In this document: piece after piece, positions 449 to 50,799 of the stretch | How the letters are laid out: every line of letters starts with the position of its first letter | Position numbering within the stretch: the first letter of the stretch is position 1 | NCBI RefSeq assembly: GCF_003605405.2 | Contig: NZ_QYTW02000003.1 | Location: forward strand, 62,001-126,000 | Direction: 5' to 3' | DNA from: Siminovitchia terrae | GTDB lineage: Bacteria; Bacillota; Bacilli; Bacillales; Bacillaceae_C | Length of the DNA stretch: 64,000 nucleotides | Program-made: the position numbers and the translations under genes | Notes under the pieces: generated by a model | Database searches by the model: none | What the model was told of the DNA's origin: nothing | What the model saw: only the letters and a program-made list of their open reading frames with translations

Positions 449-638
449 ATCAAATATGCCTTGGCGTATTTGCGCCCAGATTTTATTGAGCTCCGCCCGA
501 TAAATTTCCTCTAAAAATCTGTGGCATCCGCTGGAGGCTTTAACTTTATTCAGCCGGGGTTTGAACCCCCACTGAATGGAATACCAATATGCATTCATCT
601 CACCACTTGCAGAACTGGGAGACTTCTGCTGAATGAAG
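449..638 (-). repeat. 190-bp structured repeat, copy 1
   Basis: Full-length member of the repeat family described in the findings. On + it runs from ATCAAATATGCC to GCTGAATGAAG and is followed by TTAAA. It contains a 10-bp-arm hairpin at the ATTTGAT end, the TTATCGAGC/GCTCGATAA hairpin, a GGGGTTTGAACCCC hairpin and a CAGAAGT/ACTTCTG hairpin. Minus is given as the element sense because the insertion motif TTTAA then precedes it. Confidence 0.9.
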
Positions 639-773
639 TTAAAATCCATTACTTCTTTTAATTAATTTTTAGGGAATATCCCCTAAGTCAATAATAGGAC
701 ACCAGATAAAACTACTATCCGGAAACAAAACTAAATAGAATATGTAGCAAAACAAATAAAGGAATGATTGGAA

Positions 774-1520
774 ATGAAGAGGCCATTAAATCCTGAGGAT
801 CTGTTTGAATTAAAAATCGTCAGTGATCCACAAATTTCCCCTAATGGGAAGAGCATTGTCTATGTCGAAACAAGGATGGATCCTGTTACCAATAAATATT
901 GCAGCCGCATCTGGATCGTTTCCACTTGCGGAGAAACCGAACCGCAACAATTTACATCCGGTCCTTGTCTAGATTTTGCTCCCCGTTGGTCCCCAGACGG
1001 CAAATGGCTAGCTTTCGTATCCACAAGGCGGGGGCATCCTCAACTTTGGATCATGCCCAGTACATGTGGCGAGGCCGAACCTCTCACTAATATTCGGTAT
1101 ATAGGTGGCATTCCTGTGCGGTCTCCAGATAGCCGAACCATCGCTTGTGTCGTTCATGTTAGCGCGGAAGGCCCGGAAGAGGACCAGGGTCGAAAAAAAA
1201 ACGCCAATACAACGTTTTCAGAAGATGTGATCGTCATTGATCGTCTTGAGTATAATTTGGACACCACTGGTTATTTAGTCGGGAAACATTGGCATCTTTT
1301 CACTATCCCTGTCGTAGGTCCTGATCGCGGTAAATTCCAGCAACTCACGTTTGGTGACTACAACTACTCTTCCCCGCCATGGTCTCCCGATGGACTATAC
1401 ATCGCTTTAGCTGGAAACAGGACACCAGAACGTTTAGACCTTGCTTTGGTCAATGATATTTGGGTGATTCCTGCTAAAGAGGGAGAAACTCACCGGTTAA
1501 CTCGCGATATATTCATCTGA
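774..1520 (+). pseudogene. Truncated S9 peptidase copy (N-terminal third)
   Basis: Residues 1 to about 243 match the first third of the intact S9 peptidase at 13240-15279 almost word for word (same MKRPLNPEDLFELKIVSDPQ start and the same WSPDGKWLAFVSTRRGH propeller motif), and about 110 bp upstream is also conserved between the two loci. Homology stops near 1503, after HRLTR, and a short unrelated tail ends at 1520. The whole alpha/beta-hydrolase domain with the catalytic triad is missing, so this cannot be an active peptidase. Several Gly/Ser to Cys changes (STCGE, GPCLDF) indicate decay. It is a partial segmental duplication lying between repeat copies 1 and 2. Confidence 0.85.
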
Positions 1521-2255
1521 ATAGGAACTAGAAGCAAGTTTATTTAAAGATTTTTCTTTAAACCCATAAGTTTCTCCCCAATATTTCAACTTCGATTCAG
1601 CCATAATATGTTCCTTAAATGCATCTTATAGACTTTTATCACGGTCCACTTTGCAAAGAAGATGATGGGCATCCTCTGATAGAAATTCATCAATCAAATG
1701 CGCCTTGGCGTATTTGCGCCCAGATTTTATCGAGCTTCGCTCGATAAATTTCCTCTGAAAATCTGTGGCATCCGCCGGAGGCTTTAACTTTATTCAGTCG
1801 GGGTTTGAACCCCCACTGATGGAATACCAATATGCATTCATCTCACCACTTATAGAAGTGGGAGAGTTCTGCTGAATGAAGTTAAAAACTCGATAAATAG
1901 CTTTCATTATTGTTTGATCTTCATCTGTAACAAAACGCCATTTTCGTAATTTAAGTGTTTGTTTTATTAGCCAAAGTTGAGCGAGAGTTGTGTAATTTGA
2001 ATTGATATGAAGACGGTCAATATACTTATTTCTTCTTGTGAATTCATTAAGTAACGTTTCGCACTCTATATCTGTTTCATCATCGTCTTCCGTGGGTGGC
2101 TGAGGTGAATGAGAGAAAAACGAAGTTTTACAACGACTCTTTTGACTGAGTTCTTCATAGGCTTTGATAATAGTTACGTAGAGACTTGGATGGATATACA
2201 AGGAAAATACTGCGTTGCCTTCCAACATAAACTTCCGAATCAAAAGAAAGAACAA
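1504..2255 (-). pseudogene. Degenerate transposon-like gene interrupted by repeat copy 2
   Basis: On the minus strand 2255-1882 encodes a stretch ending KWRFVTDEDQTIMKAIYRVF. After removal of the repeat at 1693-1881 the frame runs straight on as NDEFLSEDAHHLLCKVDRDK, then meets one in-frame TAA and continues to about MAESKLKYWGETYGFKEKSL. One ancestral gene was therefore split by the repeat. I do not recognise the family with confidence; context suggests a mobile-element or plasmid-type protein. The left end is cut where the truncated S9 copy begins. Confidence 0.5.
1693..1881 (-). repeat. 190-bp structured repeat, copy 2 (inside a gene remnant)
   Basis: Full-length copy (189 bp), ATCAAATGCGCC to GAATGAAG on +, followed by TTAAAAA. 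It interrupts the reading frame of the remnant at 1504-2255; deleting exactly this interval joins GTTTTTAA to TGATGAA and restores a continuous frame, which fixes both boundaries and shows no target-site duplication. Confidence 0.9.
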
Positions 2256-2332
2256 AAGATGCGTTCGAAGATGGAATATAAGTTTCTTTACGAGTATTAA
2301 TCCAATTCCTGCCTATTGGCTGGGTCTGTATT

Positions 2333-3025
2333 TTATTTAATTATTTTACCTGGATTCCCGACGACCGTCTTATTGGCTGGAACATCCTTTGTAATCACAC
2401 TTCCCGCTCCAACGATAGCATTTTCACCGATGATCACAGCTGGAAGGAGGGTCGCGTTATTGCCGATTTTGGCCCCCTTGCAAATAATGGGCCCCTGATG
2501 CTTATAGTTCCCCATCCCCATATACTTATCGTTTGAGGACGAACAGCATGGACCAATGAACACCTCATCCTCAATCACCATATCAGCAGTTATATAACAG
2601 CCTGTTTGAATCGTCACACGTCTGCCAATTTTTGTATTTGTCTCGACAATAGCATTTCTGCCAACAATACTGTCCTCTCCGACAATGACCATTTCGCGAA
2701 TACTAGATAAATCCCCCACAAATACCCCATTCTCAAGGGTCACATGGCGGTAAATCACACTATTGCAGCCTATTGTTACATGATCCTCTATGATTAGTGG
2801 ATTGAGTATTTGTCCGGGCTTTCGTGTCATTTTTTTATTCGAGGACGTCGTCTTACCTAAAACGGTCAGATCGCCGATTTGCACGTAATTGCCAATGATC
2901 GTATCCTTTTTTATGACTACATGATGACCGATCGAAACGTGATTACCAATCACGACATTCTCTTCAACAACAACGTTCTCCCCCAGCGTAACGTCATTAC
3001 CAATTTTCGCTGTTGCATGAATCAT
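2333..3025 (-). CDS. Hexapeptide-repeat N-acetyltransferase (WbpD/WlbB-like)
   Basis: The 230-aa product is almost entirely isoleucine-rich hexapeptide repeats ([20 protein letters not shown] and onward), the signature of a left-handed beta-helix acyltransferase that works as a trimer with acetyl-CoA. The C-terminal half has the usual [31 protein letters not shown] ending split over residues about 190-225, as in sugar-nucleotide N-acetyltransferases of the WbpD/PglD type. It closes a leftward polysaccharide operon that also supplies a 3-dehydrogenase and 3-aminotransferase, so acetylation of UDP-GlcNAc3NA is the natural role. GGAGCAAGGG precedes the ATG. Substrate is inferred from neighbours. 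Confidence 0.8.
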
Positions 3026-3079
3026 TCCCTTGCTCCTTTCTTTTGATAAGGAATGATGAAACAGAACTTCACTGATTCC

Positions 3080-4075
3080 TTAAAGTTTCCGATAAATTTT
3101 TATTAATTTATCTGTAACCCGTTCAGCCGCATGATAGGTTTCCACGTACTTTCTGCTTGCTACACCAATATCATGACGTTTTTTCGGATTCTTAATTAAA
3201 TCTTGTAATACATCCTTCAATGTTTCTGGTGTTGCTTGCACAATCGGCAGGTCTTTAGGAAACTTCCTACGGACATCATCACGGATAAAAGCCACAACAG
3301 GTTTGCCCATCGCCATCGCTTCAACACTGAACATTCCATAGGTACCACATAATAACTGATCAATGATGATATCCGCTTCTCTATATTTAGCGAGCGCCTG
3401 ATCGTGGCTCATCTTTTCAAGAAGTTGATAGGTGAATTTACCTTTTCCTTTGAGCTTCTTTCTGAGCTTCTTTATTGCTGCTTCGATATGATCAGAGCCT
3501 TTAAAAGCACGGTTCGTCGGGGCGTGGATAATAAGCGGATTTTCTTTATCGATCGATGGATATGAGACAGTAAAATCCTCAACATTACATGCAAGCGGGA
3601 GAACATACACTTTTTTATAGTAGTCTTTTACATAAGGATAGGCCTCATAATCTTGTACAATGGCGGTATCAATGTGCGCTGATATTATTTTTAACTGCCT
3701 ATCAATTTCCTCATCGGAGAAATAAGTGGGAGGAAGCTTATAGGGATTTAACGAACCAACCATTTTTTCCGTGCGTACATCACTCCCCCAATGATGCATG
3801 ACCATCTTCTTACCTAATTTTTTTAATAGTCCCAGATCAGAGAAATCATAAAAAAATGTATTTGCATTATGAAAGTGGATAATATCGCTTTTTTGCACTA
3901 TAAATTCAAGATCCTTCAGAATTTCAAAAGCGTCGGAATTAATGATTTCGCCTTGATAGTTTAAATAGGTGTGAAAGGTATTATATCCTGCCGCTTGATG
4001 ATCCTTTTTTCTTAATTCCTTACAAAGAATCCCCATTTGACCTGCTATTTCAGTTGATGCATGGACAATTTTCAT
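3080..4075 (-). CDS. Glycosyltransferase family 4/1-like protein (YtcC-like), copy A
   Basis: 331 aa beginning MKIVHASTEIAGQMGILCKE. The C-terminal half carries the GT-B donor-binding pattern: ADIIIDQLLCGTYGMFSVEAMAMGKPV, with the acidic residue and SVEAMA loop used for nucleotide-sugar binding. It is clearly paralogous to the gene at 5279-6268 and resembles B. subtilis YtcC, a spore-coat polysaccharide enzyme. The longer reading frame to 4159 is not used: GGAAGGAGAG lies 8 nt before ATG 4075, and the paralogue starts at the same residue. It probably transfers a sugar to the spore or cell-surface glycan made by this locus. Confidence 0.82.
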   Translation of the reverse strand: MKIVHASTEIAGQMGILCKELRKKDHQAAGYNTFHTYLNYQGEIINSDAFEILKDLEFIVQKSDIIHFHNANTFFYDFSDLGLLKKLGKKMVMHHWGSDVRTEKMVGSLNPYKLPPTYFSDEEIDRQLKIISAHIDTAIVQDYEAYPYVKDYYKKVYVLPLACNVEDFTVSYPSIDKENPLIIHAPTNRAFKGSDHIEAAIKKLRKKLKGKGKFTYQLLEKMSHDQALAKYREADIIIDQLLCGTYGMFSVEAMAMGKPVVAFIRDDVRRKFPKDLPIVQATPETLKDVLQDLIKNPKKRHDIGVASRKYVETYHAAERVTDKLIKIYRKL

Positions 4076-4216
4076 ATACATCTCTCCTTCCGCTATAGTA
4101 TATTCACGGAAGAAAAGTTGGTCATTTCTTTTTCTATAATTGGGGAGATGCGTACTCACCGTTAATCCTATGATACATACGCTGTACTAGGATAAAAAAG
4201 AAAGGATGGGATATGC

Positions 4217-5230
4217 TTGTCACTATTTTTGACTGCAGATGAACTAGGAATCCAAAATCATCTGTGCTTGCTCCCATATGGAGAAAAGAGTGAGAATCCA
4301 ACTTGGACAACAAAAAAATTAGAGCCGTATCTGCATTATCTAGAAAATGGCGTGAAAGTCGATAGAATGTTCAACGGCCTTATTTTTCAGGCGATTAGCG
4401 GAAGAAAGAATCATTATCTGTATCCAATGTATGCTTATCTAGGTCAGGAAGCAGAAAAAGTAGATTGGAACCTAGCGATAAGCAGACTCTTTGAAAGAAA
4501 GGTCAACTTTGATGCAGTTGCCAGAAACACAGCCGCTGGAGAAACAACAGACATATGGGTAACACTGCCTTACCCAATGCGTACGCAAACGGGGTTTGGT
4601 CGAAGAGAGTTGAATTTCAAAATAGAAAGGGACCGTTTCTTGGCCTTAAAATGGTGGATCCGTAAATTCCTTAGACGATGGAACCGGGCCACCCATCTGC
4701 ATGACAAATTAAATTTTCGCGGCTTTGTTTGGCCTCGTGCGTCAATCGATGAGATTGATGGAAAACTAGTCAGGAAAGTAAACGCCTATATCCGGCTGAA
4801 AGGATACATGTCACTTTGGCTCCAGCAATACGGATCTGCAGGCTGTATAAAGTGGCAACGGTTCGGCTTTGATGCGGCCTGTTCCCATCCCAATTTTTAT
4901 GGAGCCATGGGGCCTGACCATAAATGGATTAATACTGCCACTATTTTTGCCGAGCATTATAATACAGGTATTCAAATCACTGCAGGCAAAGGAGCAATGT
5001 ATAAGGATAAACTGCTGCTTGATTATTTAGATTACGGGTATGATACGGGATATATGGAAAAAAGCCTTCTTGTCTATCAATTTCCTTTTCAAACGATGCA
5101 GGATCTGATTAAGCAGCATCCTGATGAATATGCGCTGCTTCATTCCTTTATCAATAATTCGTATAAACCGGCAAGGAAATCTTCCGCTATCCGGAGAAAA
5201 CGCCGCTCAAAGAAGAAGGTTTCCCGATAA
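4217..5230 (+). CDS. DUF4855-like protein
   Basis: 337 aa, TTG start supported by AAAGGATGG about 8 nt upstream (the nearby ATG at 4213 stops after a few codons). The beginning, CLLPYGEKSENPTWTTKKLEPYLHYLENG, fits the DUF4855 pattern of a Leu-Pro-Tyr-Gly strand followed by a Trp-Thr helix, and the FGFDAACSHPNFYG segment is also typical. The tail is very basic (SAIRRKRRSKKKVSR), suggesting association with an anionic polymer. It runs opposite to its neighbours, inside the polysaccharide locus. DUF4855 has no assigned reaction; a role in spore surface assembly is inference only. Confidence 0.6.
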   Translation: MSLFLTADELGIQNHLCLLPYGEKSENPTWTTKKLEPYLHYLENGVKVDRMFNGLIFQAISGRKNHYLYPMYAYLGQEAEKVDWNLAISRLFERKVNFDAVARNTAAGETTDIWVTLPYPMRTQTGFGRRELNFKIERDRFLALKWWIRKFLRRWNRATHLHDKLNFRGFVWPRASIDEIDGKLVRKVNAYIRLKGYMSLWLQQYGSAGCIKWQRFGFDAACSHPNFYGAMGPDHKWINTATIFAEHYNTGIQITAGKGAMYKDKLLLDYLDYGYDTGYMEKSLLVYQFPFQTMQDLIKQHPDEYALLHSFINNSYKPARKSSAIRRKRRSKKKVSR

Positions 5231-5238
5231 GAATGGAG

Positions 5239-5272
5239 AAAGCTGATGGCCATGACCATCAGCTTTGTTATT
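5239..5272. terminator. Bidirectional terminator between convergent genes
   Basis: Perfect 11-bp stem AAAGCTGATGG/CCATCAGCTTT with a 6-nt loop, flanked by A-rich and T-rich sequence, placed between the convergent DUF4855-like gene and glycosyltransferase B. Confidence 0.75.
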
Positions 5273-5278
5273 CGGAAG

Positions 5279-6268
5279 TTATACCTTAATATTTTCATAA
5301 ATCTTAAGCAGCTGTTCCGCCACAACATCGTTAGTATGATAGGTTTCTACATAACGACGGCCTCTGATCCCCAGCTCTCTACGCAGGTGGGGATTCTCCA
5401 ATAATTGCTTCACCTGCTCATCAAGCAGGTCAGGATTGGTATTCACAATCGGCAATCCGGCAGGAAAGGTTGAAACGAGATCTGGCCGAATATAGGTTAA
5501 AACCGGCTTGCCCAACGCCATTGATTCGACACTCAGCAATCCATAGGAGCCGCACCGAACTTGATCAATGATGATGTCAGCCTCCTCATAAAGCTTGATG
5601 ACCTCCTCATGCTTCATCTTTTCAATCCGGCGATAATGAAAATCGTACTGACCTTTTAATCGTTCAATCGCTTCCTCTATATAGTAAGTCCCCTTAAAGT
5701 CAGGATTTGTCGGAGCGTGAAGAATCAAAGGTCTATCCTTTTGAACCGATGGATAGGATGGCTGAAAAGAGGCTATTTCGATGGCAATCGGGACCACATG
5801 CACTTTTTCATAGTATTCCTTCACATAGTCATATACCTCATAATCCTGAACAATCGCTTCCTTGATATGTTTGGAAATGCGCTTAAGCTTTGCATGGATG
5901 ATTTCATCAGGAGGGGAATCCCCGGTATAAACGTAAGGGTTATTGCGTCGGGCTTGGTCATGAAAACGAACATCGTTCCCCCAATGATGCATAATCATCT
6001 TTTTTTTTCGTTTCCGAATTTCCGATAAATCTGAGAAATCGGTTGATAGTGTCGTGCCATAATGAAAATGAAATAAGTCATAGGTATCCAGAATTTCTTG
6101 ATATCGCTCCTTCAGGCCCTGTTCATCTGTATTAATCAGATGATCTGTATACTCTAAATAGGAGTGAAAGGTATTATACCCAACAGAACAGTGCCCCTTT
6201 CTCTTCAGGGCACTGCTCAATACTCCCATTTGGCCAGCGATTTCGGTTGTACCGTGAAAAATCTTCAA
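5279..6268 (-). CDS. Glycosyltransferase family 4/1-like protein (YtcC-like), copy B
   Basis: 329 aa starting with TTG as MKIFHGTTEIAGQMGVLSSA; the start lies one base after the TAG of the upstream epimerase gene, so the two are translationally coupled. The GT-B donor site reads ADIIIDQVRCGSYGLLSVESMALGKPV. It is a paralogue of the gene at 3080-4075 along its whole length (same HHWGNDVR and AIVQDYE segments). Two linked paralogues suggest two successive transfer steps or alternative acceptors in one glycan. It is the last gene of the four-gene operon 9388 to 5279. Confidence 0.83.
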   Translation of the reverse strand: MKIFHGTTEIAGQMGVLSSALKRKGHCSVGYNTFHSYLEYTDHLINTDEQGLKERYQEILDTYDLFHFHYGTTLSTDFSDLSEIRKRKKKMIMHHWGNDVRFHDQARRNNPYVYTGDSPPDEIIHAKLKRISKHIKEAIVQDYEVYDYVKEYYEKVHVVPIAIEIASFQPSYPSVQKDRPLILHAPTNPDFKGTYYIEEAIERLKGQYDFHYRRIEKMKHEEVIKLYEEADIIIDQVRCGSYGLLSVESMALGKPVLTYIRPDLVSTFPAGLPIVNTNPDLLDEQVKQLLENPHLRRELGIRGRRYVETYHTNDVVAEQLLKIYENIKV

Positions 6269-6269
6269 C

Positions 6270-9388: not shown

Positions 9389-9442
9389 AGCCTTCCCCCT
9401 TCATCTCTAAATCAATTAAGTTAGTAATTTTATTTTCACAGC

Positions 9443-9451
9443 TAATCTATG
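9443..9451 (-). promoter_or_regulatory. Possible SigK-type -10 element for the leftward glycan operon
   Basis: Minus strand reads CATAGATTA, a match to the late-sporulation sigma-K -10 pattern CATAnnnTA, about 55 bp before the aminotransferase start. No convincing AC-type -35 lies 16-17 bp upstream, so this is suggestive only. Confidence 0.3.
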
Positions 9452-9598: not shown

Positions 9599-9636
9599 AC
9601 TTGTATTTAAATTTTTCAGACAAGGAGCGTTGTAAA

Positions 9637-12216: not shown

Positions 12217-12406
12217 ATCAAATGCGCCTTGGCGTATTTGCGCCCAGATTTTATCGAGCTCCGCTCGATAAATTTCCTCTGAAAATCTGTGGCATCCGCC
12301 GGAGGCTTTAACTTTATTCAGCCGGGGTTTGAACCCCCACTGAATGGAATACCAATAGGCATTCATCTCACCACTTACAGAAGTGGGAGATTTCTGCTGA
12401 ATGAAG
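12217..12406 (-). repeat. 190-bp structured repeat, copy 3
   Basis: Full-length copy between the two YjcZ-family genes, ATCAAATGCGCC to GAATGAAG on +, followed by TTAAAT. It has the same internal hairpins as the other copies. Confidence 0.9.
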
Positions 12407-12502
12407 TTAAATAAGTGGAGCACACATTTTTTTGTCCACATGTCCCTATTCGTTTTACACTTACCCGGATAATTTGTATTAGTCCTGTAAGGGGGGATAT
12501 TT

Positions 12503-15279: not shown

Positions 15280-15294
15280 GGAAATAAAACATAG

Positions 15295-17199: not shown

Positions 17200-17382
17200 A
17201 TCAAATGCGCCTTGGCGTATTTGCGCCCAGATTTTATCGAGCCCCGCTCGATAAATTTCCTCTGAAAATCTGTGGCATCCGCCTGAGGCTTTGACTTTAT
17301 TCAGCCGGGGGTTGCCCCCACTGAATGGAATACCAATATGCATTCAACTCACCACTTACAGAAGGACTTCTGCTGAATGAAG
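17200..17382 (-). repeat. 190-bp structured repeat, copy 4
   Basis: 183 bp; same ends as the others but with small deletions in the GGGTTTGAACCC hairpin and in the AGAAGTGGGAGACTTCT hairpin. Followed by TTAAAAA. Confidence 0.88.
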
Positions 17383-17387
17383 TTAAA

Positions 17388-18858: not shown

Positions 18859-18940
18859 ATCAAATGCGCCTTGGCGTATTTGCGCCCAGATTTTATCGAG
18901 CTCCACTTGATAAAATTCCTCTGAAAATCTGTGGCATCCG
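18859..18940 (-). repeat. Partial repeat, left module only (copy 5)
   Basis: Runs from ATCAAATGCGCC to GTGGCATCCG and then stops; the module containing the GGGTTTGAACCC hairpin and the GAAG end is absent. Its stem has CTTGATAA in place of CTCGATAA. Confidence 0.85.
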
Positions 18941-19970: not shown

Positions 19971-20162
19971 ATCAAATGCGCCTTGGCGTATTTGCGCCCA
20001 GATTTTATCGAGCTCCGCTCGATAAATTTCCTCAGAAAATCTGTGGCATCCGCCGGAGGCTTTAACTTTATTCAGCCAGGGTTTGAACCCCCCCACTGAA
20101 TGGAATACCAATATGCATTCATCTCACCACTTACAGAAGTGAGAGACTTCTGCTGAATGAAG
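19971..20162 (-). repeat. 190-bp structured repeat, copy 6 (inside an ABC operon)
   Basis: 192 bp; lies between the ABC ATPase and permease genes of one operon. The flanking motif is ATTAA rather than TTTAA in the element sense. Its structured RNA would be part of the operon transcript. Confidence 0.9.
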
Positions 20163-22858: not shown

Positions 22859-23331
22859 CCAAAAGCAACGCCTTTCCTGTAATACTTTTATATAATACTT
22901 TTATATTCTTAATTTCCAAATTCAATCAATAGCATCGTTTCGTTTCATACAATCACTAGTTCGGTTTTATAATATCAATATAATTTAATAATAATTTGCT
23001 CTATGGGTACACATTGCATACTGTCAGCACTCGGCGGGCTATTTTTATTGATTATCGTATTTATTTCTTCAGAAGGAATCATAGTGAAACTACCATACTA
23101 TATAATATTTGTAAAATGGATCATTTTACCTACTTGTATGGTTTTTGATATAATTACGTTCCTTTTAGAATGATGATCGGATGACCTCCGATTCTATTTC
23201 TTCTTTTCCCACCCTAAAATATTTGGAAAAATACTGAACACAAGAGAAAAGGTCTTGAAACTTACCGGACAAAGGAAGAATGGATATTGGATTAATAAAA
23301 CCGATAGGATTCCTACCTATTTTCCCATAAA
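22859..23331. other. Intergenic stretch between the two-component operon and the TOMM cluster
   Basis: A 56-codon hydrophobic frame occupies 23003-23173 on + (MGTHCILSALGGLFLLIIVF onward, two possible membrane helices) but has no ribosome site, so it is not called as a gene. Otherwise AT-rich with no feature. Confidence 0.35.
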
Positions 23332-29169: not shown

Positions 29170-29660
29170 TATGATAAAGGAAAAGTGGAGGGCGACGATT
29201 AGCGACGTATAGACTGGAGTGACTCCGACGAGATAAAGGAAACACGGGGACAAAGGAGACTTATCGTAGGAAGAGGTGCGAAGGCTGCTAGTCGCTGGAA
29301 CCCGGAGCTGGACAATAAGAAAAGTGGAAGCGCTCGTTTAGCGATATACAAACTGGAGTGCCTCTGACGAGATAGAGAATAAGGAAGTGCGAGAGTGCCT
29401 GCTTATCGGCGACAAGCATAAGGCAAGCGTTGAAGAAGTCGTAGTTTGCCTTCAGAAGCGATTGACTTATGACCTCGAGCCGACAGGCTCAGGACGCTAC
29501 ATCCTGTCGCTTCGCTTGCACTAGCACATCCATTTGCGTCGGCCAGACAACACGGTGACGAAGGCCGCCTCAGACCGGCACATCCTGTGGCTTCGGTGCA
29601 CTAGGACGTCCTGTCCGTCGGAGCCGATGCTGAGCGCTAGAGCTAGACAGGGAGAAATTA
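29170..29660. repeat. GC-rich intergenic repeat region with internal direct repeats
   Basis: A GC-rich island in AT-rich surroundings. Blocks beginning AAAAGTGG and containing TTAGCGA, ACTGGAGTG and GACGAGATA occur near 29180-29250 and again near 29320-29390; a second pair with ACATCCTGT and CTTCG..TGCACTAG lies near 29500 and 29580. It ends in GAGCTAGACAGGGAGAAA. No coding frame is convincing. It resembles the long intergenic repeats common in some Bacillaceae, but I cannot name a family. Confidence 0.5.
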
Positions 29661-30184: not shown

Positions 30185-30375
30185 ATCAAATGCACCTTGG
30201 CGTATCTGCGCCCAGATTTTATCGAGCTCCGCTCGATTAATTTCCTCTGAAATTCTGTGGCATCCGCCGGAGGCTTTAACTTTATTCAGCCGAGGTTTGA
30301 ACCCCCACTGAATGGAATACCAATATGCTTTCATCTCACCACTTACAGAAGTGGGAGAACTTCTGCTGAATGGAG
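30185..30375 (-). repeat. 190-bp structured repeat, copy 7
   Basis: 191 bp with more substitutions than most (GCACC for GCGCC, GATTAA in the stem, GAATGGAG end), so probably an older insertion. Followed by TTAAAA. It lies 16 bp beyond the stop of the nucleotidyltransferase gene. Confidence 0.88.
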
Positions 30376-30391
30376 TTAAAATTGCTCTTTT

Positions 30392-31213
30392 TTAGTTCTG
30401 ATTTTTATACATCTTATTGCAATAATTAAGTATGTAGTTCATACATTGTATGGTGTCATTAATCCTGTGTTTCTTGGAATTATAGTAACGTATATCTAAC
30501 CCTTCTGAAATGCTAATCACTTCTTTAATGATGTTATGCCATATTTCTGGCATATGATTGATTGCATATTTACCTGCTTCTACTTTTGAAATGATCTCAT
30601 GTTCTCTAAGTGTATAGAATTGGCGTAACATCCCGGTAATGGACCACTGTAATTCCTGATCTAAAAATTTATTTGGTAATAGAGGTGCTATTCTTTTGAA
30701 TTTTTTTAAAGTATTCATTCGATTGAACCAATAGGTATTCATATTGGTTAGTACGTAATTAGCCAGATCACTCTCATCAACATCAAAGTGGAATGAGGTA
30801 ATATTAGGACCAATAATACCGATTCCTTTGTTTTTCAGAATCCACCAAGTAATCGGGTTAATCTCATGATTACTCCAACGTACTTTTCCTTCATTTACAT
30901 ATAAACATTTTTTTGTTTCAGTCGGCTTCTTACCTATGTCTTCCCAAAGAAGATAGCATCCGTCCATTCCTGTTTTTTTATATTTATTTTTTAACTCTCG
31001 ATGAGAGTTAGATAATGCTTTTATCTCTGCTTCAGTTAATTGGCGGTTAACAATTGCAATGAAATCAATATCACTAGAGCCATTAATATAAGCATTAAGA
31101 GCAATTGAACCGTGTAAATATAATCCTTCAAGCGTATTAGGAATTCGTTCGTTAAATAACGCAATATAATCCCTTAAAATATTTTGAACTGAGATTGGAA
31201 CTCTTGAATCCAT
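30392..31213 (-). CDS. AadA-like aminoglycoside (spectinomycin/streptomycin) nucleotidyltransferase
   Basis: 273 aa. LYLHGSIALNAYINGSSDIDFIAIV is the GS-x(n)-DxD nucleotidyltransferase motif near residues 32-56, and the C-terminal helical part (NTYWFNRMNTL, QWSITGMLRQFYTLREHEI, SKVEAGKYAINHMPE) fits the DUF4111 domain of ANT(3'')/ANT(9) enzymes. Those enzymes adenylylate spectinomycin or streptomycin. Divergence is considerable, so another small-molecule target is possible. The gene is tightly bracketed by repeat copies 7 and 8, each within about 20 bp. Confidence 0.7.
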   Translation of the reverse strand: MDSRVPISVQNILRDYIALFNERIPNTLEGLYLHGSIALNAYINGSSDIDFIAIVNRQLTEAEIKALSNSHRELKNKYKKTGMDGCYLLWEDIGKKPTETKKCLYVNEGKVRWSNHEINPITWWILKNKGIGIIGPNITSFHFDVDESDLANYVLTNMNTYWFNRMNTLKKFKRIAPLLPNKFLDQELQWSITGMLRQFYTLREHEIISKVEAGKYAINHMPEIWHNIIKEVISISEGLDIRYYNSKKHRINDTIQCMNYILNYCNKMYKNQN

Positions 31214-31230: not shown

Positions 31231-31417
31231 ATCAAATGCGCCTTGGCGTATTTGCATCCAGAATTGATTGAGCTCCGCTCGATCAATTTCCTCTGAAAAT
31301 CTGTGGCAACCGCCGGAGGCTTTAACTTTATTCAGCCGGGGTTGAACCCCCACTGAATGGAATAACAATATGCTCATCTCACCACTTACAGAAGTCGGAG
31401 ACTTCTGCTGAATGAAG
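31231..31417 (-). repeat. 190-bp structured repeat, copy 8 (compensatory stem change)
   Basis: 187 bp. The stem reads AATTGATTGAGC / GCTCGATCAATT. Relative to the consensus the T-A pair has become G31266-C31284 and an extra A-T pair is gained, that is, both strands of the stem changed together. Followed by TTAAAT. Confidence 0.9.
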
Positions 31418-31465
31418 TTAAATCCACACCCACTCAAACATAAAAAGAGTGATAAGTTCTTTCTA

Positions 31466-33016: not shown

Positions 33017-33118
33017 GCTTTAACTTTATTCAGCCGAGGTTTGAACCCCCGCTGAATGGAATACCAACATACATTCATCTCACCACTTACAGAAGTGGGA
33101 GACTTCTGCTGAATGAAG
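33017..33118 (-). repeat. Partial repeat, right module only (copy 9)
   Basis: Starts at GCTTTAACTTTATTCAGCC, exactly where the internal 16-bp inverted repeat of full copies begins, and ends GCTGAATGAAG followed by TTAAAT. The module with the ATTTGAT end is absent. Confidence 0.85.
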
Positions 33119-33176
33119 TTAAATTATAGCTTAATCCTCATTTTTAATTTATTTGGGTTTATTTAACGCTTACCGT

Positions 33177-42474: not shown

Positions 42475-42510
42475 ATTTCCGTGTTTAATGTACCTGTAAC
42501 ATCACTTTTG
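42352..42510 (+). mobile_element. IS110-family transposase fragment
   Basis: Encodes LKELSQRLCENDCKDVCMES, then TGKY-stop-ISVFNV, where intact IS110 transposases read MESTGxYWxPVFN. The Trp codon has become TAG. Neither end of the insertion sequence is present. Confidence 0.6.
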
Positions 42511-42699
42511 TACATCCTAAGTTGTATTGTAAAAATAAAGTGAGTATTTAACACTATGGAAACAATAAGGATAGAGGTTAAACACCGGCCGAACATTTTT
42601 TTGACATTCATTTTTTTTAAGCTGTAAGAATACATAACACGACTTTCTTAAAATCTATCATGTTAATGGTTATCTTTTATTATATAACCCTGAAAAAAG

Positions 42700-42745
42700 T
42701 CAAAAAAACGGCCTAAGGATTCTACTCATCTGTGGCCGTCTTTCA
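42700..42745 (-). terminator. Terminator of the agmatinase operon
   Basis: ACGGCC/GGCCGT stem with a 20-nt loop and, on the minus strand, a following run of seven T; 13 bp after the agmatinase stop. Confidence 0.6.
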
Positions 42746-42757
42746 TTATTTACATCA

Positions 42758-43750: not shown

Positions 43751-43891
43751 ATAGTTTCCTCCACTTGTTAAATTAATAGCGTAAAAAACCGCCGTAAAAA
43801 CTGCTCCAAACAGTAGAATAATAGATTGATTTAATCCTAGAGAAAATTCCTTAAAAAACTAGTGTCCCAGGGGGACACTATAAAATGCTTC

Positions 43892-45364
43892 CTAATTCCC
43901 AAACCAGTTGGTTGGCTCAACTTCTAAATTGATATTGATTTGTTTTGCTTCAGTGAATTCTTCCAAACCAAAGGTTCCCAGCCCGCGGCCAATTCCGCTT
44001 TGTTTATAGCCCCCCCAAGGAGCTTCGTTATAAGCGAGGTTATAGGCATTGACCCATGTAATCCCCGCACGTATTTTTTTAATGACTCTTAAAGCCTTTG
44101 CTCCGTCTTGGGAAAAGACGCCTGCCGCAAGGCCGTAAGAGGTATCGTTCGCCAGTAGGATGGCCTCCGCTTCATCTTTAAATTTTTGAACGACCAGAAC
44201 AGGACCGAATATCTCCTCTTGTACAATTTTCATGTTAGGCTTTGTATCAATAAATATGGTAGGCTCAATAAAATACCCTTTCTCAAGCCCATTTTCTGTG
44301 ATTCGTCTACCACCGCAAGCCAATGTTGCTCCTTCTTCGATTCCGGTTTGGATATATTTGAGCACTTTTTCCATATGTGATTTGCTGACGAGAGCCCCCA
44401 TTTCTGTGGAAGTTTGATCGCCAGGACCCACGCGTATTTCTTTCGCTTTTTTTACCAATCTATCAAGGAATTTTTCATGAATGCTTTCTTCAAGTAGTAA
44501 ACGCGACCCAGCATTGCACACCTGCCCTGCGTTCATAAAAATTCCAAATAAAGCATAATCAACTGCAGTTTCAAAATCTGCATCCGCAAAAACAATATTA
44601 GGAGATTTGCCACCGAGTTCCAATGATATATTTTTGATGTTTCCGGACGCTTTTTTCATAATACTTCTTCCAGTAGTTGTACTTCCTGTAAATGAAATCA
44701 TATCTACTTTATCGTTTTCAGCAATTTCATTTCCAACTGTTGCTCCATCGCCCATGACAAGGTTGGCGACTCCCGATGGTATTCCAACTTCTTCTATTAT
44801 CTCGAATAACTTGACAGTTGTTATCGGTGTAACACCGGATGGTTTATATACTACTGTATTGCCTGCTGCAAGAGCAGGAGCTAATTTCCATGCACCAGTT
44901 AACAAAGGAAAATTCCATGGAGCGATGAGACCACAAACACCGACAGGTTCCCGTACAACCATCGCTTGAACCGGATCAGACACGGGGTATGTTTGGCCAT
45001 CCGGTTTTGTAATTAATCCAGCATGATAACGAAAACAATCTACGGCATCAGCAATGTCATACTCTGATTCTCTGAAAGGTTTCCCGGTATTAGCAGATTC
45101 AAGTTTGCTTAGCCTCGATGCATTTTCTTCAATTTTATCCGCAATTTTAAACAAATAGGACGCTCGTTCAGCAGCCGGCAGATCAGACCAAATTCCCGAA
45201 TCAAATGCCTTACGCGCCGAATCAATAGCCGTTCTAGCGTCTTCTTCATTCCCTTTAGCCACTTCAGCAATGATCTTGCCGTTTGCCGGATTGATTACAT
45301 CGTCCGTCTCCTTGCTGAAGGAATCCAGCCACTCACCGTTAATAAACATTTGTAATTTTAACAT
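43892..45364 (-). CDS. Aldehyde dehydrogenase (betaine/aminoaldehyde type)
   Basis: 490 aa, the same length as GbsA. Catalytic blocks: [20 protein letters not shown] (Asn), [24 protein letters not shown] (Glu) and [12 protein letters not shown] (Cys nucleophile). ATG 45364 has CGGAGGT 7 nt upstream; the longer open frame to 45415 is not needed. The fold and neighbours suggest oxidation of an aminoaldehyde such as 4-aminobutanal or 4-guanidinobutanal; betaine aldehyde is the alternative because the partner alcohol dehydrogenase resembles GbsB. Confidence 0.88.
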
Positions 45365-45471
45365 TGGCAATACCTCCGGTTCATTATTTTTTTGGCTTTC
45401 TTTTTTAACATGCACGCCAGGATGAGAAATCCCGTGAACTTGTGATTAACGCTTAAATCTCGAAATCTCTT

Positions 45472-45661
45472 ATCAAATGCGCCTTGGCGTATTTGCGCCC
45501 AGATTTTATCGAGCTCCGCTCGATAAATTTCCTCTGAAAATCTGTGGCATCCGCCGGAGGCTTTGACTTTATTCAGCCGGCGTTTGAACCCCCACTGAAT
45601 GGAATACCAATATGCATTCATCTCACCACTTACAGAAGTGAGAGACTTCTGCTGAATGAAG
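45472..45661 (-). repeat. 190-bp structured repeat, copy 10 (inside a catabolic operon)
   Basis: Full-length copy placed 10 bp after the alcohol dehydrogenase stop codon and about 108 bp before the aldehyde dehydrogenase start. Followed by TTAAAAA. The operon transcript would contain its hairpins. Confidence 0.9.
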
Positions 45662-45671
45662 TTAAAAATTC

Positions 45672-46847
45672 TTATATTGAAGTCATAGTTTCTTCCTCGT
45701 ATGCTGACTGGAATAATTTCAAATAGTCATCGTACGTCAGTTTTCGTGAATTTGTGTTTGTGCATAAATGCTTGAATGCTCCTTCAGCGAGAAAGGGGAA
45801 GTCGTCCGGATTGACATCGCTTAAGCTGCTAAAGCTTGGTATCCCGATGTGATTTGCAAGCTCTTTTAATAAACGCACTCCTTCAAGTGCAGTTCCCTCA
45901 GGTGATTGTCCAGGCCTTGCGCCTAGTTTTAAAGCTATTTCCGCATGTTTTTCGGGATCGGAAGGAATATTATTTTCAAAAACATAAGGAAGGAAAATGG
46001 CATTTGCCACGCCGTGGGGCGTATCGTAAAGGCCTCCCAAGGGCTCGGCCATTGCATGAACCGCTCCAAGATCTGCATTGTCAAATGCCATACCTGCAAT
46101 CAGGCTGGCTACGAGCATATTTCTTCTTGCTTCCAGGTTATTTCCATTTTCTACAGCCTGTGGAAGATATTTTGCAATTAACTCAATTGAGTATAGACTT
46201 AGACCATCTGAAATCGGCTGTGAAATATTGCTTGTATATGCTTCAATTGCATGAGTTAGTGCATCCATTCCTGTTGCAGCTGTCAAGGAACGAGGCAAAG
46301 ACAGGGTTAATTCCGGATCTAAAATGGCAAGCTTTGGAGCTATTCTTATATCCAAAATAGCCTCTTTTTGTTTCGTGTCTGTATCTGTAATGACAGAACC
46401 TGTTGTAACCTCACTGCCGGTACCCGACGTGGTCGGAATACAGATCAGCGGAGTTATCTCCTGCTCAAGCAGATTTACCCCGTAACGCTCTCTGAGTTCC
46501 CCGCCATGTGTTAACAATGTACCGATTGCTTTTGCCGTATCCATTGAACTTCCTCCACCGAGACCAACCAATAGATCGATGTTCTTGTCTTTATATTGCT
46601 GATAGGCTTTTTGACAATCAACGTCTTTGGGGTTGGGGGTGACCTCGTCATATACAAGATAATGAATTCCTTCCTGGTCGAATGCACAAGTTACTTTTTC
46701 TAGAACACCGGTTTTCGCCAATCCCTTATCTGTAAGAATAAGGGCCATTGTTCCTCCAAGTTCTTTCGCTCTTTTTCCGACATGTTTAACAGTTCCGTTT
46801 CCAAATTCTATGGATGTAGGCAGATTGAATTGAAAGTTCCAAACCAT
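45672..46847 (-). CDS. Iron-containing (type III) alcohol dehydrogenase, GbsB-like
   Basis: 391 aa. [13 protein letters not shown] is the NAD-binding motif near residue 97; [19 protein letters not shown] and [14 protein letters not shown] are family signatures, and the iron ligands lie in DALTHAIE and [22 protein letters not shown] (His pair). Oxidises an amino- or choline-type alcohol to the aldehyde used by the next gene product. It precedes the aldehyde dehydrogenase and follows a permease gene on the same strand. Confidence 0.88.
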
Positions 46848-47005
46848 GACTCTCTTCTCCTTTATGTTGTATTTTCAATACGAGGTTTTTTATTGGGAAT
46901 ATTCCATCTCTTGAACTTTTTCAAATTGATTCTAACCTTATCGGTTGGATGATCACCTCCCTAGAATATCGACATTCAATTCGTGCTTCACTTTTCTTGC
47001 TCTTA

Positions 47006-48349
47006 TCACGGTGTAGCTTTTTGGTCAAATTGAATTTCGGAAAGTTTTTTGTTAGACAGTTTAGTCAAATATATAAGGTAGACAAAGCCGCAGACCATCC
47101 AAACTCCCCCGATAATTAATGCTGAGGTTTCCAAGTTTGTCCACAACCAAAAAGTAAGTGATGCCCCGGTGAGCGGCAAACAAAGATACTTTACAAAGTC
47201 TTCTAAAGTAGAGCGCTTACAATTTCTGATAAAATAATGAGCAATCACTGATAGATTAACAGAGGTAAAAGCCATAAGCGCACCAAAGTTAATAAACTTT
47301 ATTACTTGTTCAAGAGTCAAAACGATGCCAATCATGGAAAATAAAGCAATGACAGTGATTGCCCGAGACGGCGTTTTAAATTTTGGATGCACATATCCAA
47401 ATACATTTTTCGGCAATACGGAATCCCTTCCCATGGCAAACAACACACGTGATGCACTCGTTGTTGCAGCAATGCCAGAAGTAAAATTTCCCATTAACAT
47501 GACAGCAATAAATAATGCTTTGAAAAAGTTTCCACCTATAATAGCTGCTATTTCAAGTGATGCAGAATCGGCATGCTTGAATGAAAACCCTGGAAGAACC
47601 AATTGTGAAAGATAGGAGGAAGTTATATATAAAAAACCGACAATGAGCAGCATAATAATAATTGCTCTAGGAATGGTTTTTTTGGGATCGACTGTTTCTT
47701 CAGACAAAGTAGTGAGCGAGTCGAAACCAAGAAAGCTAAAGCATAGGATAGCCGCCCCCGATAAAACGACCGGTATAGGAACATCAGGACTAAACAATGG
47801 CTTACTGGAAATGAGCGTCCCCGCTCCCACTCCTCCCAATAGGCTTTTGATGGATAATATGCAAAATAAACTAACAAACACTATCTGAGTGATTACAAAA
47901 ATTTTACTCATGAGAGCCGATATATTAATGCCTAAGATACTTGGGATCACAATAGAAGCAGTCCAAAGAATAATCCAGATAAAATGCGGAATTCCAGGAA
48001 GAACCACACTTAAATAGATTGTCGACATCAAGGCTGTAACTAAAGGTGTCAACATATAATCCAGCATGATTGTCCAGCCGACAATAAATCCTACGCCAGG
48101 ATGCATGGATTTTTGAGCAAAAGTATAGGCCGAGCCTGCAATAGGATATGCTTTTGCCATTTCTGCATAGCTGAGTGCTGTAGAAAATATGGCTAAAAAT
48201 GCAAGGATATATGCGCCGGTTATGACTCCATGTGAGGTAACAGTCGCTATTCCATACGTATTGAAAAACACTGCGGGGTTATTCCATGCAATCCCTAAAA
48301 TAACAACTTGAGATAGGGTTAATATTCTTGCAAGCTTTATTTTTTCCAT
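47006..48349 (-). CDS. PuuP-like amino acid/polyamine permease (APC superfamily)
   Basis: 447 aa with about 12 membrane helices. YPIAGSAYTFAQKSMHPGVGF, SGAAILCFSFLGFDSLTTLSEETVDPKKTIPRA and SRVLFAMGRDSVLPKNVFGYVHPKFKTPSRA all parallel the putrescine importer PuuP (sequence family blocks quoted in pieces). It is the intact paralogue of the truncated permease at 41509. Leader gene of the alcohol dehydrogenase/aldehyde dehydrogenase/agmatinase group; divergent from a MerR regulator. Confidence 0.82.
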   Translation of the reverse strand: MEKIKLARILTLSQVVILGIAWNNPAVFFNTYGIATVTSHGVITGAYILAFLAIFSTALSYAEMAKAYPIAGSAYTFAQKSMHPGVGFIVGWTIMLDYMLTPLVTALMSTIYLSVVLPGIPHFIWIILWTASIVIPSILGINISALMSKIFVITQIVFVSLFCILSIKSLLGGVGAGTLISSKPLFSPDVPIPVVLSGAAILCFSFLGFDSLTTLSEETVDPKKTIPRAIIIMLLIVGFLYITSSYLSQLVLPGFSFKHADSASLEIAAIIGGNFFKALFIAVMLMGNFTSGIAATTSASRVLFAMGRDSVLPKNVFGYVHPKFKTPSRAITVIALFSMIGIVLTLEQVIKFINFGALMAFTSVNLSVIAHYFIRNCKRSTLEDFVKYLCLPLTGASLTFWLWTNLETSALIIGGVWMVCGFVYLIYLTKLSNKKLSEIQFDQKATP

Positions 48350-48531
48350 TTAGATCCTCCTGTCTATTTGGTTCTTCACCCCTAATGCTCTAATACTTAC
48401 GTATTTTTCTCCTTTCCAAATCTCTCTTAAATTGAGAAAAATTCAGCTAATAATTGTCCATGTATTCTCTCCTTTTCAATTGGTATAATAATTCGGATGG
48501 TTTTAAAATTTCCTTATTTGAATTCTAAAGT

Positions 48532-48546
48532 TTTGTGTTACACAAA
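48532..48546. promoter_or_regulatory. Operator-like dyad between permease and MerR gene
   Basis: Perfect palindrome TTTGTGT-T-ACACAAA in the 255-bp divergent intergenic region, about 57 bp before the MerR start. A candidate binding site for that MerR protein. Confidence 0.45.
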
Positions 48547-48603
48547 TGTCAACAGTTATATTTCTTTTTTTGGAACAATAATTTTTCAAAGGGGATACAA
48601 TAA

Positions 48604-49434
48604 ATGAAAGAAAAATTAACTATTGGAGAAATGGCTAAACTAAGAAACTTAACTACTGAGACGCTACGACACTATGATCGAATTGATTTATTTAAACCGC
48701 AATATATTGATCCCCACTCGGGATATCGTTATTACTCTATCTATCAGTACGAGATTTTAGGCACCATCAAAGAATTGCGCCAGTTGGGTTTGAGTACCGA
48801 TGAAATTAAAGGCTACTTCGATGAAAGAAGTTTTAACAACTCCTTAGAATTACTTACATTCAAACATCTAGAACTTGTTTCAAAACTTAAAGAGTTAACT
48901 GACTTGGAAGAAAATATTAGAGAGAAAATTTCATACCTGAAGCAAGTTGAGAAAGATGATGAAGATAAAGAGGTAATATTTCGTAAGATAAAAAGCAGGA
49001 AGTTAATCACGTTAAATGAAAACATTAACAACAATCTACAACTTTGTTACGGTGTTATCAAGTTGGAGAATATGTTGAACGAAAAGGCGCCGATTTTGGC
49101 CAGCAATAGACTGGGCATTATCATTAAAGAAGAAGACCTTAGATTGCATAAATTTGAAGAACCGTCTGTTATTTTTATTGTTGCAAAAAACAAACAGAGG
49201 ATACCCAAAAAACACCAACGGACAGTTCCGGGTGGGCTGTTCGCGTGTATCCGTTATAATGGAGAATTACTTTGGAATCGAAGTGAAAGCTTAGCCAAGA
49301 TCCTTAACCACCTTGATAAACATGGGTATCGTATTAAAGGCGATGCACTGCAAATCATGTACGTAGATATTACAATTACAGACAAACCAAATGAGATTAA
49401 ATTCGAAATTCAAGTCCCCATTGAAAAAGTATGA
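48604..49434 (+). CDS. MerR-family regulator, BmrR/BltR-like
   Basis: 276 aa. The DNA-binding part reads LTIGEMAKLRNLTTETLRHYDRIDLFKP with YRYYSIYQYEILGTIKELRQLG following; then a dimer helix (KLKELTDLEENIREKISYLKQ) and a C-terminal GyrI-like ligand domain (GGLFACIRYNG, GYRIKGDALQIMYVD). Such proteins activate divergent promoters when an amphipathic or cationic ligand binds. The divergent permease operon suggests a polyamine-related ligand, which is inference. Confidence 0.85.
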   Translation: MKEKLTIGEMAKLRNLTTETLRHYDRIDLFKPQYIDPHSGYRYYSIYQYEILGTIKELRQLGLSTDEIKGYFDERSFNNSLELLTFKHLELVSKLKELTDLEENIREKISYLKQVEKDDEDKEVIFRKIKSRKLITLNENINNNLQLCYGVIKLENMLNEKAPILASNRLGIIIKEEDLRLHKFEEPSVIFIVAKNKQRIPKKHQRTVPGGLFACIRYNGELLWNRSESLAKILNHLDKHGYRIKGDALQIMYVDITITDKPNEIKFEIQVPIEKV

Positions 49435-49442
49435 AAAAAATG

Positions 49443-49480
49443 GGCCGTCCATCAGCTTCTATTTAATGGACGGCCTTAGT
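49443..49480. terminator. Hairpin after the MerR gene
   Basis: Perfect 10-bp stem GGCCGTCCAT/ATGGACGGCC with a 13-nt loop; the T-run is stronger on the minus side (seven A before it on +). Confidence 0.65.
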
Positions 49481-50033
49481 AAGGTATCTATTAAAGATAT
49501 ATCAGTCGTTTACTATAACGAACTCTCCTTTTCGTTCATTAGGTATTTCTTTAGGGAGTCTTTTTCTTACCTCTATCACTGACTTATATATTTAAAACGG
49601 GAATGCTCAATAAATCGCTGTATTTATTTCCTATAATTACAATATTGAGAAAATACTAACAGTGATACAGGTAAAAAGGATCCCTTTTTAGTACTTTTCG
49701 CCAAAATCTTATTTTTACTATGTGTATCATGCTAGTAGAAAAGATAATTACTGATTCAATAGCATATCTCAAAATTAAATATTCGCAGGTCGCATAAATT
49801 TATGATTCTTTAGGAGTAAGCGTCAAATATCCCACCTATTGGTTTGTAATAAAGTTTGATTAAAATGGATTCATACCTAGCAGATTTTAAGTATCGGATT
49901 TATAAAAAAGTTTGAACATTTTCCACCTATGTTTTCCTTAATCTCGCACTTCAATGGAATAACGAAATAAGGGCTTAGTCTTAAAATCGCTTATTGCTTG
50001 TGAACTATGTTAAAGGAGAATATACTACTCATT
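49481..50033. other. AT-rich intergenic stretch
   Basis: No gene supported. Contains a small AAAAAGG/CCTTTTT hairpin near 49675 and nothing else recognisable. Confidence 0.45.
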
Positions 50034-50799
50034 TTATCCCTTTCCATTGAGAATTTGCTGCATACATTTTTCACCCCTTGACACTCGAGTTTTGGATTGT
50101 TTGGGTGAGAATAATGAAGAATGTAAACTCTTTCCCGTCCCGGCGTCAATGCTTCAAAAGAAGTTTTCAAGGCAGGAATTTCTTCGAATTTATTTTGAAG
50201 TTCTTCAGGAATGAAATATTCTTCATGCTTTTTTAATTCCACTTTCAAACCGGCTTTTTCAACTTCAATGGCTTGATAAATATAGGCTTTCAAGATGGGT
50301 TTCATCTCGAGTATTTCTTGAGAAACGGTGAACCGAATCTGGCGCGCGCCTGTACATTCTCCGTTTGTTGGATTAGAATCCCATGGGCATCCTTTAACAA
50401 GGTACCTTTGTGAACAGGAGCGCACAATATTCTATCAAATGCGCCTTGGCGTATTTGCGCCCAGATTTTATCGAGCTCCGCTCGATAAATTCCCTCTAAA
50501 AATCTGTGGCATCCGCCGGAGGCTTTAACTTTATTCAGCCGGGGTTTGAACCCCCGCTGAATGGAATACCAACATGCATTCATCTCACCACTTGCAGAAG
50601 TGGGAGACTTCTGCTGAATGAAGTTAAATCCATGTATTAAAACTATGTTTTTTTCTCAAATATGTAACAAGTATGCATCCACTTAAATTCTTCGGTCAGC
50701 TCACAGTAAAGAACGATATTTCTCAAATTCTTATCTTCTTCCACTTTTTAGCTTTACTTAATATTTCATCAAACTTAGGTTCATACTACTATTTGTCAT
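50034..50799 (-). pseudogene. Decayed YdeI/OmpD-associated (DUF1801-type) gene split by repeat copy 11
   Basis: Read with several small frame corrections, the minus strand from ATG 50799 gives [117 protein letters not shown] and MQQILNGKG, in that order. This is a whole YdeI-family protein of about 195 codons. It is broken by at least four indels and by repeat copy 11, which sits exactly between GFK and EYC coding sequence. Not functional. Confidence 0.85.
50434..50623 (-). repeat. 190-bp structured repeat, copy 11 (inserted in the YdeI-like gene)
   Basis: Full-length. In the element sense the gene reads CATGGATTTAA, then the element CTTCATTC..ATTTGAT, then AGAATATTGTGCG. Removing 190 bp gives CAT GGA TTT AAA GAA TAT TGT, coding HGFKEYC as in intact homologues. 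No bases are duplicated or lost. Confidence 0.93.

Follow-up and report, generated by a model that had tools for sequence, protein, structure and literature searches.

What is the repeat of about 190 nt that recurs along this stretch of the Siminovitchia terrae genome, and what moves it? The stretch, referred to here as the window, comprises 64,000 nucleotides and holds nine full and two partial copies. A preliminary description had likened these copies to non-autonomous elements of the IS200/IS605 type of insertion sequence (IS). Our analysis indicates that the repeat is very probably a non-autonomous, single-strand HUH/Y1 (IS200/IS605-like) element and, as such, a homogeneous palindrome-associated transposable element (PATE). 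The original comparison is supported by a one-sided TTTAA target, the lack of target duplication, differences between species and a strand bias. The check proposed with it, a search for a full-length element with tnpA and/or tnpB sharing both ends, found none among the loci scanned; the name therefore stands for a mechanistic class and not for a proven IS derivative.

Copies, target and empty sites

With the copy at 449..638 as the blastn query, all nine full and both partial copies were recovered in the window at the positions previously given, and the eight remaining full copies matched the query at 90–95% identity (E = 4e-72 to 2e-88). The full copies all point the same way, their element sense being on the minus strand. 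They lie at 449..638 (TTTAA target, in the element sense, at 639–643), 1693..1881 (1882–1886), 12217..12406 (12407–12411), 17200..17382 (17383–17387; small internal deletions), 19971..20162 (where the target is ATTAA), 30185..30375 (30376–30380), 31231..31417 (31418–31422), 45472..45661 (45662–45666) and 50434..50623 (50624–50628). The 12217 copy, used here as the reference, keeps its minus orientation between two plus-strand open reading frames (ORFs).

The host genome, labelled G000, is a draft of 5.30 Mb in 68 contigs. At least 41 repeat matches were found genome-wide, with 40 of the 598 first-look candidates scored. A total of 464 kb was examined closely, made up of the window and 20 stretches of 20 kb, some of which were picked because they held a copy. 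This sequence contained 71 full copies, defined as running from element positions 1–4 to 187–190, and 12 partial rows, which were kept apart. Contig C23, of which 264 kb was examined including the window, accounted for 30 of the 71. A naive extrapolation from the density on C23 would give some 600 copies per genome, a figure that is not a count.

The ends are constant, as had been claimed: in the element sense, copies start with CTTCATTCAGC directly after TTTAA and finish in ATTTGAT. The 30185 copy starts with CTCCATTCAGC instead. Most of the 71 copies are 189–191 nt long (range 160–196), too short for a transposase gene. The pentanucleotide before the left end was TTTAA in 62 of them, a motif whose background in these 464 kb is 0.0025 per base per strand; the nine other targets were GTTAA and ATTAA (two each) and TTGAA, TATAA, TTTAT, TTGAT and TCTAA (one each). 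The right flank showed no base preference. Among copies drawn from the best matches in other genomes, TTTAA preceded the left end in 18/20 (G001), 20/24 (G003), 11/13 (G005), 14/22 (G032), 3/3 (G022), 3/4 (G040) and 1/3 (G024). A further 27 of 34 full copies from named genomes also followed TTTAA; this count was set aside as circular, because those loci were fetched by a pattern that itself contains TTAA. At L166:7539-7918 (G000:C7; also L007), two copies lie head to tail, the right end of one abutting the left end of the other with no bases between. Only one TTTAA is present, the arrangement to be expected from twofold use of one target.

We considered the possibility that an internal TTAAA, the complement of the target, guides the choice of target. 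The 125 of 153 full copies with a recognizable inner motif were scored and the other 28 omitted. Among 17 copies in which the inner motif is TGAAA, ten were at TTTAA and one at TTTCA; target choice is thus not strictly tied to the inner motif, and the idea was abandoned.

The copies are strongly intergenic. When the flanks of each copy were joined, only 1 of 60 junctions fell inside an ORF of at least 120 aa, compared with 1373 of 2000 random positions (11 of the 71 copies, near fragment ends, were omitted). With the element left in place, six of the 71 copies lay inside some ORF of at least 100 aa, and three copies have a target whose TAA is the stop codon of an ORF on the element strand. This placement fits either the loss by selection of insertions that disrupt genes or a tendency to insert between genes.

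Comparison of the joined flanks with all fetched loci gave 38 distinct rows, several of which match only another repeat or a tandem neighbor. Three loci provide exact empty sites, with TTTAA present once in both states and no duplication: L158:2798 compared with L355 (G002) and L369 (G005), L158:13416 compared with L362 (G003), and L258, which is occupied in G003 and corresponds to an empty site at L167 in the host genome. A fourth comparison, L382 (G003) with L166 (host) and L387 (G001), is near-exact, with TTTAA kept and 1–2 nt differing after it. At L158:19212, compared with L364 (G005), the right flank has diverged and TTTAA is kept; copies in G003 and G001 match the same G005 site. G005 has no counterpart of the 30185 copy; there the homologous left flank leads directly into the target motif (one flank was comparable). 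The 19971 copy, in turn, is common to G003 (C49:18677) and G001 (C10:21493-21498), where it occupies the matching place in a continuous homologous block. No target duplication was found in any occupied/empty pair. The preliminary description had stated that the copies lack long terminal inverted repeats and target duplications, and neither was found in the 71 copies or at the orthologous empty sites; had they occurred, they would have spoken against its proposal. Nor is the repeat always at the same conserved locus, the other outcome it had named as contrary: a fixed locus is rejected because both insertions and absences are seen between species.

Orientation, predicted structure and proposed mechanism

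The orientation of the copies follows replication. GC skew was used as a proxy for replication direction; the G-rich strand of most bacteria is the leading one, whose sequence equals that of the lagging-strand template. The element-sense strand was the G-rich strand in 70 of the 71 full copies (binomial p ≈ 8e-21, copies treated as independent). TTTAA itself is no commoner on that strand (1145 occurrences, against 1205 on the other). After omission of six copies at fragment edges, the bias was kept in 22 of 23 copies between convergent or divergent ORFs, and in 3 of 3 copies for which both neighboring ORFs were opposed to the element; transcription thus does not explain the orientation. In G032, which represents another genus and has a subfamily of its own, 21 of 25 scored copies agreed with the local GC skew. 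These 25 lie in fetched 20-kb stretches, the genome search having yielded 30 rows, with some copies split over several rows; in two of the stretches the skew was only 0.021, one agreeing and one not. The preference for the lagging-strand template that is expected of Y1 transposition is therefore found here, a feature that went unmentioned in the preliminary description. IS608 and ISDra2 are described as favoring the lagging-strand template in the relevant part of PMC6006769, while the corresponding part of a survey of IS605 in Halanaerobium reports no strand preference, with 10 of 22 tnpA genes on the leading strand (PMC7290912).

The element has no terminal inverted repeats, and palindromes lie near both ends. 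The preliminary description had assigned a subterminal hairpin to each end. Across 46 copies, the terminal one, CAAATACGCC/GGCGCATTTG, has 89% of its cells paired, with changes on both sides at three pairs. The other, CAGAAGT/ACTTCTG, has decayed in some copies, including the 17200 copy with its 5-base deletion, and the predicted minimum-energy fold puts its bases in other pairings. A further feature had been missed: the outer tip, TTTAACTTCATTCAGC, recurs in inverted form within the element as GCTGAATAAAGTTAAA, closing a long foldback. For the 12217 copy together with its TTTAA, the predicted single-strand DNA fold has an energy of −49.1 kcal/mol (z = −9.1 relative to shuffles). Given this z score and the blastn E values, the repeat family is not a product of chance. 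A G032 copy gave z = −5.6. The predicted fold has two domains: a left foldback of about 104 nt, in which the tip and the target are paired with the internal inverted copy, and a right domain that stops before an unpaired tail.

The two partial copies of the window, both in minus orientation, match single structural domains closely. The copy at 18859..18940 consists of the right-end part only (element positions 109–190), and that at 33017..33118 of the left-end foldback part only (element positions 1–102), with TTTAA at 33119–33123. The domains may thus be lost or moved separately.

On 46 diverse copies, 86.8% of the predicted pairs of the full fold were paired, compared with 31–53% for slid partners, a control that is biased in favor of the fold because the latter was derived from one of the 46 sequences. 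Cells changed on both sides numbered 64, compared with 36.8 for shuffles, none of 500 reaching the observed number. The simple hairpins were 89.8% paired, and had eight both-side pairs where shuffles gave 4.6 (at least as many in 10 of 500). Since they score somewhat better than the full fold, the two foldings may alternate. The predicted structure is likely to be real, and covariation lends it moderate support.

These features suggest how the element might move. At the replication fork, where the lagging-strand template becomes single-stranded, the element (about 190 nt, 5'-CTTCATTCAGC...ATTTGAT-3') would fold into its left foldback domain and its right hairpin domain, and the folded ends would be recognized by a Y1 transposase supplied in trans. 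The enzyme would cut after TTTAA on the left and after TTGAT on the right, and the excised strand would be rejoined 3' of another single-stranded TTTAA, leaving the target unduplicated. We infer the class of the enzyme, the positions of cleavage and a circular single-strand intermediate.

Several observations weigh against this interpretation. A good number of the occupied/empty pairs have diverged or lack precision, and in some the empty state has no TTTAA. At 22886..22902 the window is empty and G003 (C49:21594-21792) and G001 (C10:18578-18776) are occupied (L098), with an inexact junction and a 14-bp difference in length; a copy near the RAYT gene discussed below (L079/L080, compared with L158, L359 and L360) is among these cases, as are L166:19600, which reads TTTGA when empty, L166:14768, L167:11606, L147:19026, L158:18722, L243 and L277. 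In G032 the target motifs are more varied, and 4 of its 25 scored copies are counter-oriented. In the structural comparison, counts that resist the effect of relatedness were unremarkable for the full fold (20 both-side pairs against 17.6, with 116 of 500 shuffles as high, and 84 pair types against 80.2, with 66 of 500 as high), the simple hairpins beat shuffles only weakly on such counts (10 of 500 and 34 of 500 as high), and RNAalifold, run on the raw full alignment, returned only three pairs. Finally, the ends of the repeat were shared by none of 56 Y1-transposase match rows, some of them halves of one split gene (21 genomes searched, 18 with a match), and by none of the 30 TnpB loci examined out of 34 matches in seven genomes, and no single Y1 lineage was present in all of the repeat-bearing genomes examined.

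Distribution and candidate enzymes

The repeat was found in 11 of 60 genomes, the host included (E 0.001): four of the six genomes of the host genus, six of another genus of the same family, and one of another family. Three of those in the other genus of the same family (G026, G028 and G030) gave partial matches only. Among the matches listed for an exact left-end pattern in named genomes were Bacillus norwichensis, Bacillus sp. HF117_J1_D, Bacillus sp. V3B, Niallia endozanthoxylica, Amphibacillus sediminis, two Sporosarcina, Alkalihalobacillus macyae and two uncultured Bacillales/Bacillus assemblies. The family thus spans several Bacillales genera. The mean pairwise identity of sampled full copies was 0.91 in the host, 0.89 in G001, 0.87 in G003, 0.87 in G005 (the samples from these three being best matches to a host copy) and 0.79 in G032, where the closest pair reached 0.96. 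Such identities within genomes suggest repeated, partly recent amplification.

Phage and plasmid collections gave no match to the repeat at E 1e-5. Two exact patterns retrieved three stretches from IMG/VR viral contigs: L402 contains a full copy (77%), L404 a 24-base right-end match only, and L403 was discarded as a chance match inside a coding gene. The full copy on L402 implies that phages may carry the element.

The ends were sought within flanks of about 1.5 kb around the transposase genes, shorter at contig ends. Wherever a repeat lay near a Y1 or TnpB gene, it was a separate complete or shortened copy. Two left-end-only matches at L022, considered as signs of a longer element, proved to be short fragments. 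The enzyme may have been lost, may reside in genomes outside the search, or may be a transposase of IS200 type or of the REP-associated (RAYT) type acting at a distance, REP denoting repetitive extragenic palindromic sequences; an autonomous parent may likewise exist in genomes outside the search or be extinct.

The host genome itself has four Y1 matches: one uninterrupted IS200-type gene (L018), two degenerate genes and one of RAYT type (L020). It seems improbable that the last, a single-copy RAYT-type Y1 transposase at G000:C13:34510-35073, is the cognate enzyme that moves the 190-nt bipartite element to TTTAA. The gene matches NCBIfam NF047646 at 1e-19, below the cut-off (70.9 against 80 bits), and homologues with at least 70% identity occur in five of the 60 genomes, the host included, all of them repeat-bearing (Fisher p ≈ 8e-5, a value that ignores shared ancestry). 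A 71% homologue is present in G032, whose own subfamily is recent, and G002 and G004, of the host genus, have neither the homologue nor the repeat. When any RAYT match was counted, however, there was no association (8/11 repeat-bearing genomes against 32/49 others, p = 0.74); a match was also present in five of eight further repeat-bearing genomes. G005, G030, G040, Amphibacillus sediminis, Sporosarcina limicola and Sporosarcina sp. E16_8 carry the repeat and yet gave no RAYT match, and G060, with copies up to 88% identical, has only a 48% homologue. In G000, G001, G003 and G032, GGGGTCTGACCCC-type palindromes stand on either side of the RAYT gene, so that its REP is probably another sequence; only five such palindromes were counted in the 464 kb of host sequence. 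Element copies do not flank RAYT genes, and came within 1.5 kb of one in G001 and G003 only, about 800–850 bp away. The RAYT was rated lower as the cognate enzyme because of the carriers that lack it, the absence of an overall association and its own palindromes. The IS200-type TnpA of the L018 lineage, which would have to act on imperfect ends, is a slightly better candidate, if still an unlikely one. Its gene is uninterrupted in G000, Amphibacillus sediminis has a close relative (88% identity) with one in-frame stop, and other close relatives occur, broken or partial, in G003, G001 and G005, thus partly in genomes without the RAYT, and its right end is also hairpin-like and finishes in TTTGAT. 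On the other hand, its left end (GAAAACCCCTGGC...) and its flanks are unlike those of the element, with no preceding TTTAA; moreover, G022 has only a short, distant fragment, no locus of G032 matched, and the TnpA of G064 is 27% identical. Similarly doubtful is the more general proposal that there is no autonomous parent at all, and that a resident, single-copy, domesticated Y1 (of RAYT type or a relative) amplifies the 190-nt strand to hundreds of copies, inserting it at TTTAA. If true, this would amount to a REP-like system capable of full-size, target-specific transposition, and bcr1, with its TTTAT, may be of the same kind.

Explanations that do not involve Y1 are less probable still. Y2/HUH elements likewise insert beside a short one-sided motif without duplication, and the one-sided motif, the lack of duplication and the strand bias could suit other HUH elements; nonetheless, the hairpin domains at both ends and the fixed right end are better fitted by Y1 than by Y2, and we consider a rolling-circle origin (IS91/ISCR or helitron-like) very unlikely. 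That the repeats are conserved regulatory RNAs or terminators and not mobile DNA would accord with the stable predicted fold and the intergenic location. This is the least probable of the readings, contradicted as the main explanation by the empty orthologous sites, together with the species-specific positions and an orientation that follows replication rather than flanking genes; some copies could have been co-opted. Rfam, at gathering thresholds, gave no match in the window. A classical miniature inverted-repeat transposable element moved by a DDE transposase was rejected, the repeat being without terminal inverted repeats and target duplication.

Relation to known elements and other features of the window

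As a probable single-strand Y1-type element, the repeat closely recalls the homogeneous PATEs of Haloquadratum walsbyi, whose ends are shared with IS605-type transposons according to the portion of PMC3119063 that deals with them. Like these PATEs, as described there, it lacks terminal inverted repeats and target duplications, has palindromes close to its ends, is too small for a transposase gene, and occurs in many near-identical copies with strain-specific insertions. It differs in being bacterial, in having no IS partner among the loci scanned, in its extrapolated hundreds of copies and in its demonstrated strand bias. Insertion 3' of a short T-rich motif without duplication, subterminal palindromes and the use of the lagging-strand template are shared with IS608, ISDra2 and the group A IStrons, as far as the relevant sections of PMC4227781 and PMC6006769 describe them; the group A IStrons insert 3' of TTGAT, ATTAT or TTTAT (PMC4227781). 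Those elements encode TnpA, whereas the present one is gene-less, about 190 nt long and targeted to TTTAA.

The bcr1–bcr3 repeats of the Bacillus cereus group are short interspersed repeats with a TTTAT motif, whose mobility is ascribed, in the passage concerned of PMC6542083, to a mechanism resembling site-specific recombination. They are likened to the present family by description, not by sequence: both are short and mobile in character, in Bacillus, with a T-rich pentanucleotide. The element had no nucleotide match in the plasmid collection (E 1e-5), where some bcr copies should lie. REPs are single hairpins of 20–65 nt, many with a GTAG-like foot, in the parts of PMC3733652, PMC8266576 and PMC6006769 that treat them. 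REPs, the bacterial interspersed mosaic elements (BIMEs) and their RAYT (TnpAREP) resemble the present case in that palindromic sequences lie between genes at high copy number and are assumed to be mobilized in trans by a Y1 enzyme. The 190-nt element, in contrast, has two domains and a fixed target, and the local RAYT has different palindromes. A search of literature text for left-end strings of 15–17 bases returned no paper, which is weak evidence, since such strings are seldom printed.

The Bacillales family is a new PATE-like case, unusually abundant and clean, and the mechanism put forward in the preliminary description is well supported. With it, the Bacillales gain a PATE-like family of very high copy number that combines exact empty sites with a target of five letters and an orientation bias that is nearly perfect, and the lagging-strand rule for single-strand transposition becomes visible across a natural genome. 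The many copies with no detectable cognate enzyme raise the questions of which Y1 moves them and whether the repeats of the bcr group are the same thing.

Some further features were seen in passing. At L158:9488-10194 (G000:C13), the RAYT-type gene is part of a unit about 700 bp long, with GGGGTCTGACCCC-type palindromes at its borders. G005 is without this unit and keeps one similar palindrome there; the unit looks like a Bacillales REPtron. Around RAYT-type genes at L143 (G017) and L146 (G008), palindromes of about 50 bp are repeated within 20–40 kb, those at L143 containing GGGGTC(T/A)GACCCC.

In the window, an aminoglycoside-nucleotidyltransferase-like gene (30392–31213, minus strand) is situated between two direct copies of the element, those at 30185 and 31231. 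It matches Pfam AadA_C, while its matches to the NCBIfam ANT(9)/AadA models are weak and far below the cut-off. The block containing this gene (96%) is found elsewhere in G003 (L108), where one border is a shorter, diverged variant of the element. A second, unrelated interspersed repeat lies at about 29314–29634. For this repeat, about 30 matches were listed in G002, of the same genus, a genome that gave no match to the 190-nt family in the genome search (E 0.001). Lastly, the plus-strand ORF at 59068–63645 encodes a 1525-aa P-type ATPase with a long N-terminal extension, in which there is a sub-threshold match to a heavy-metal-associated domain.

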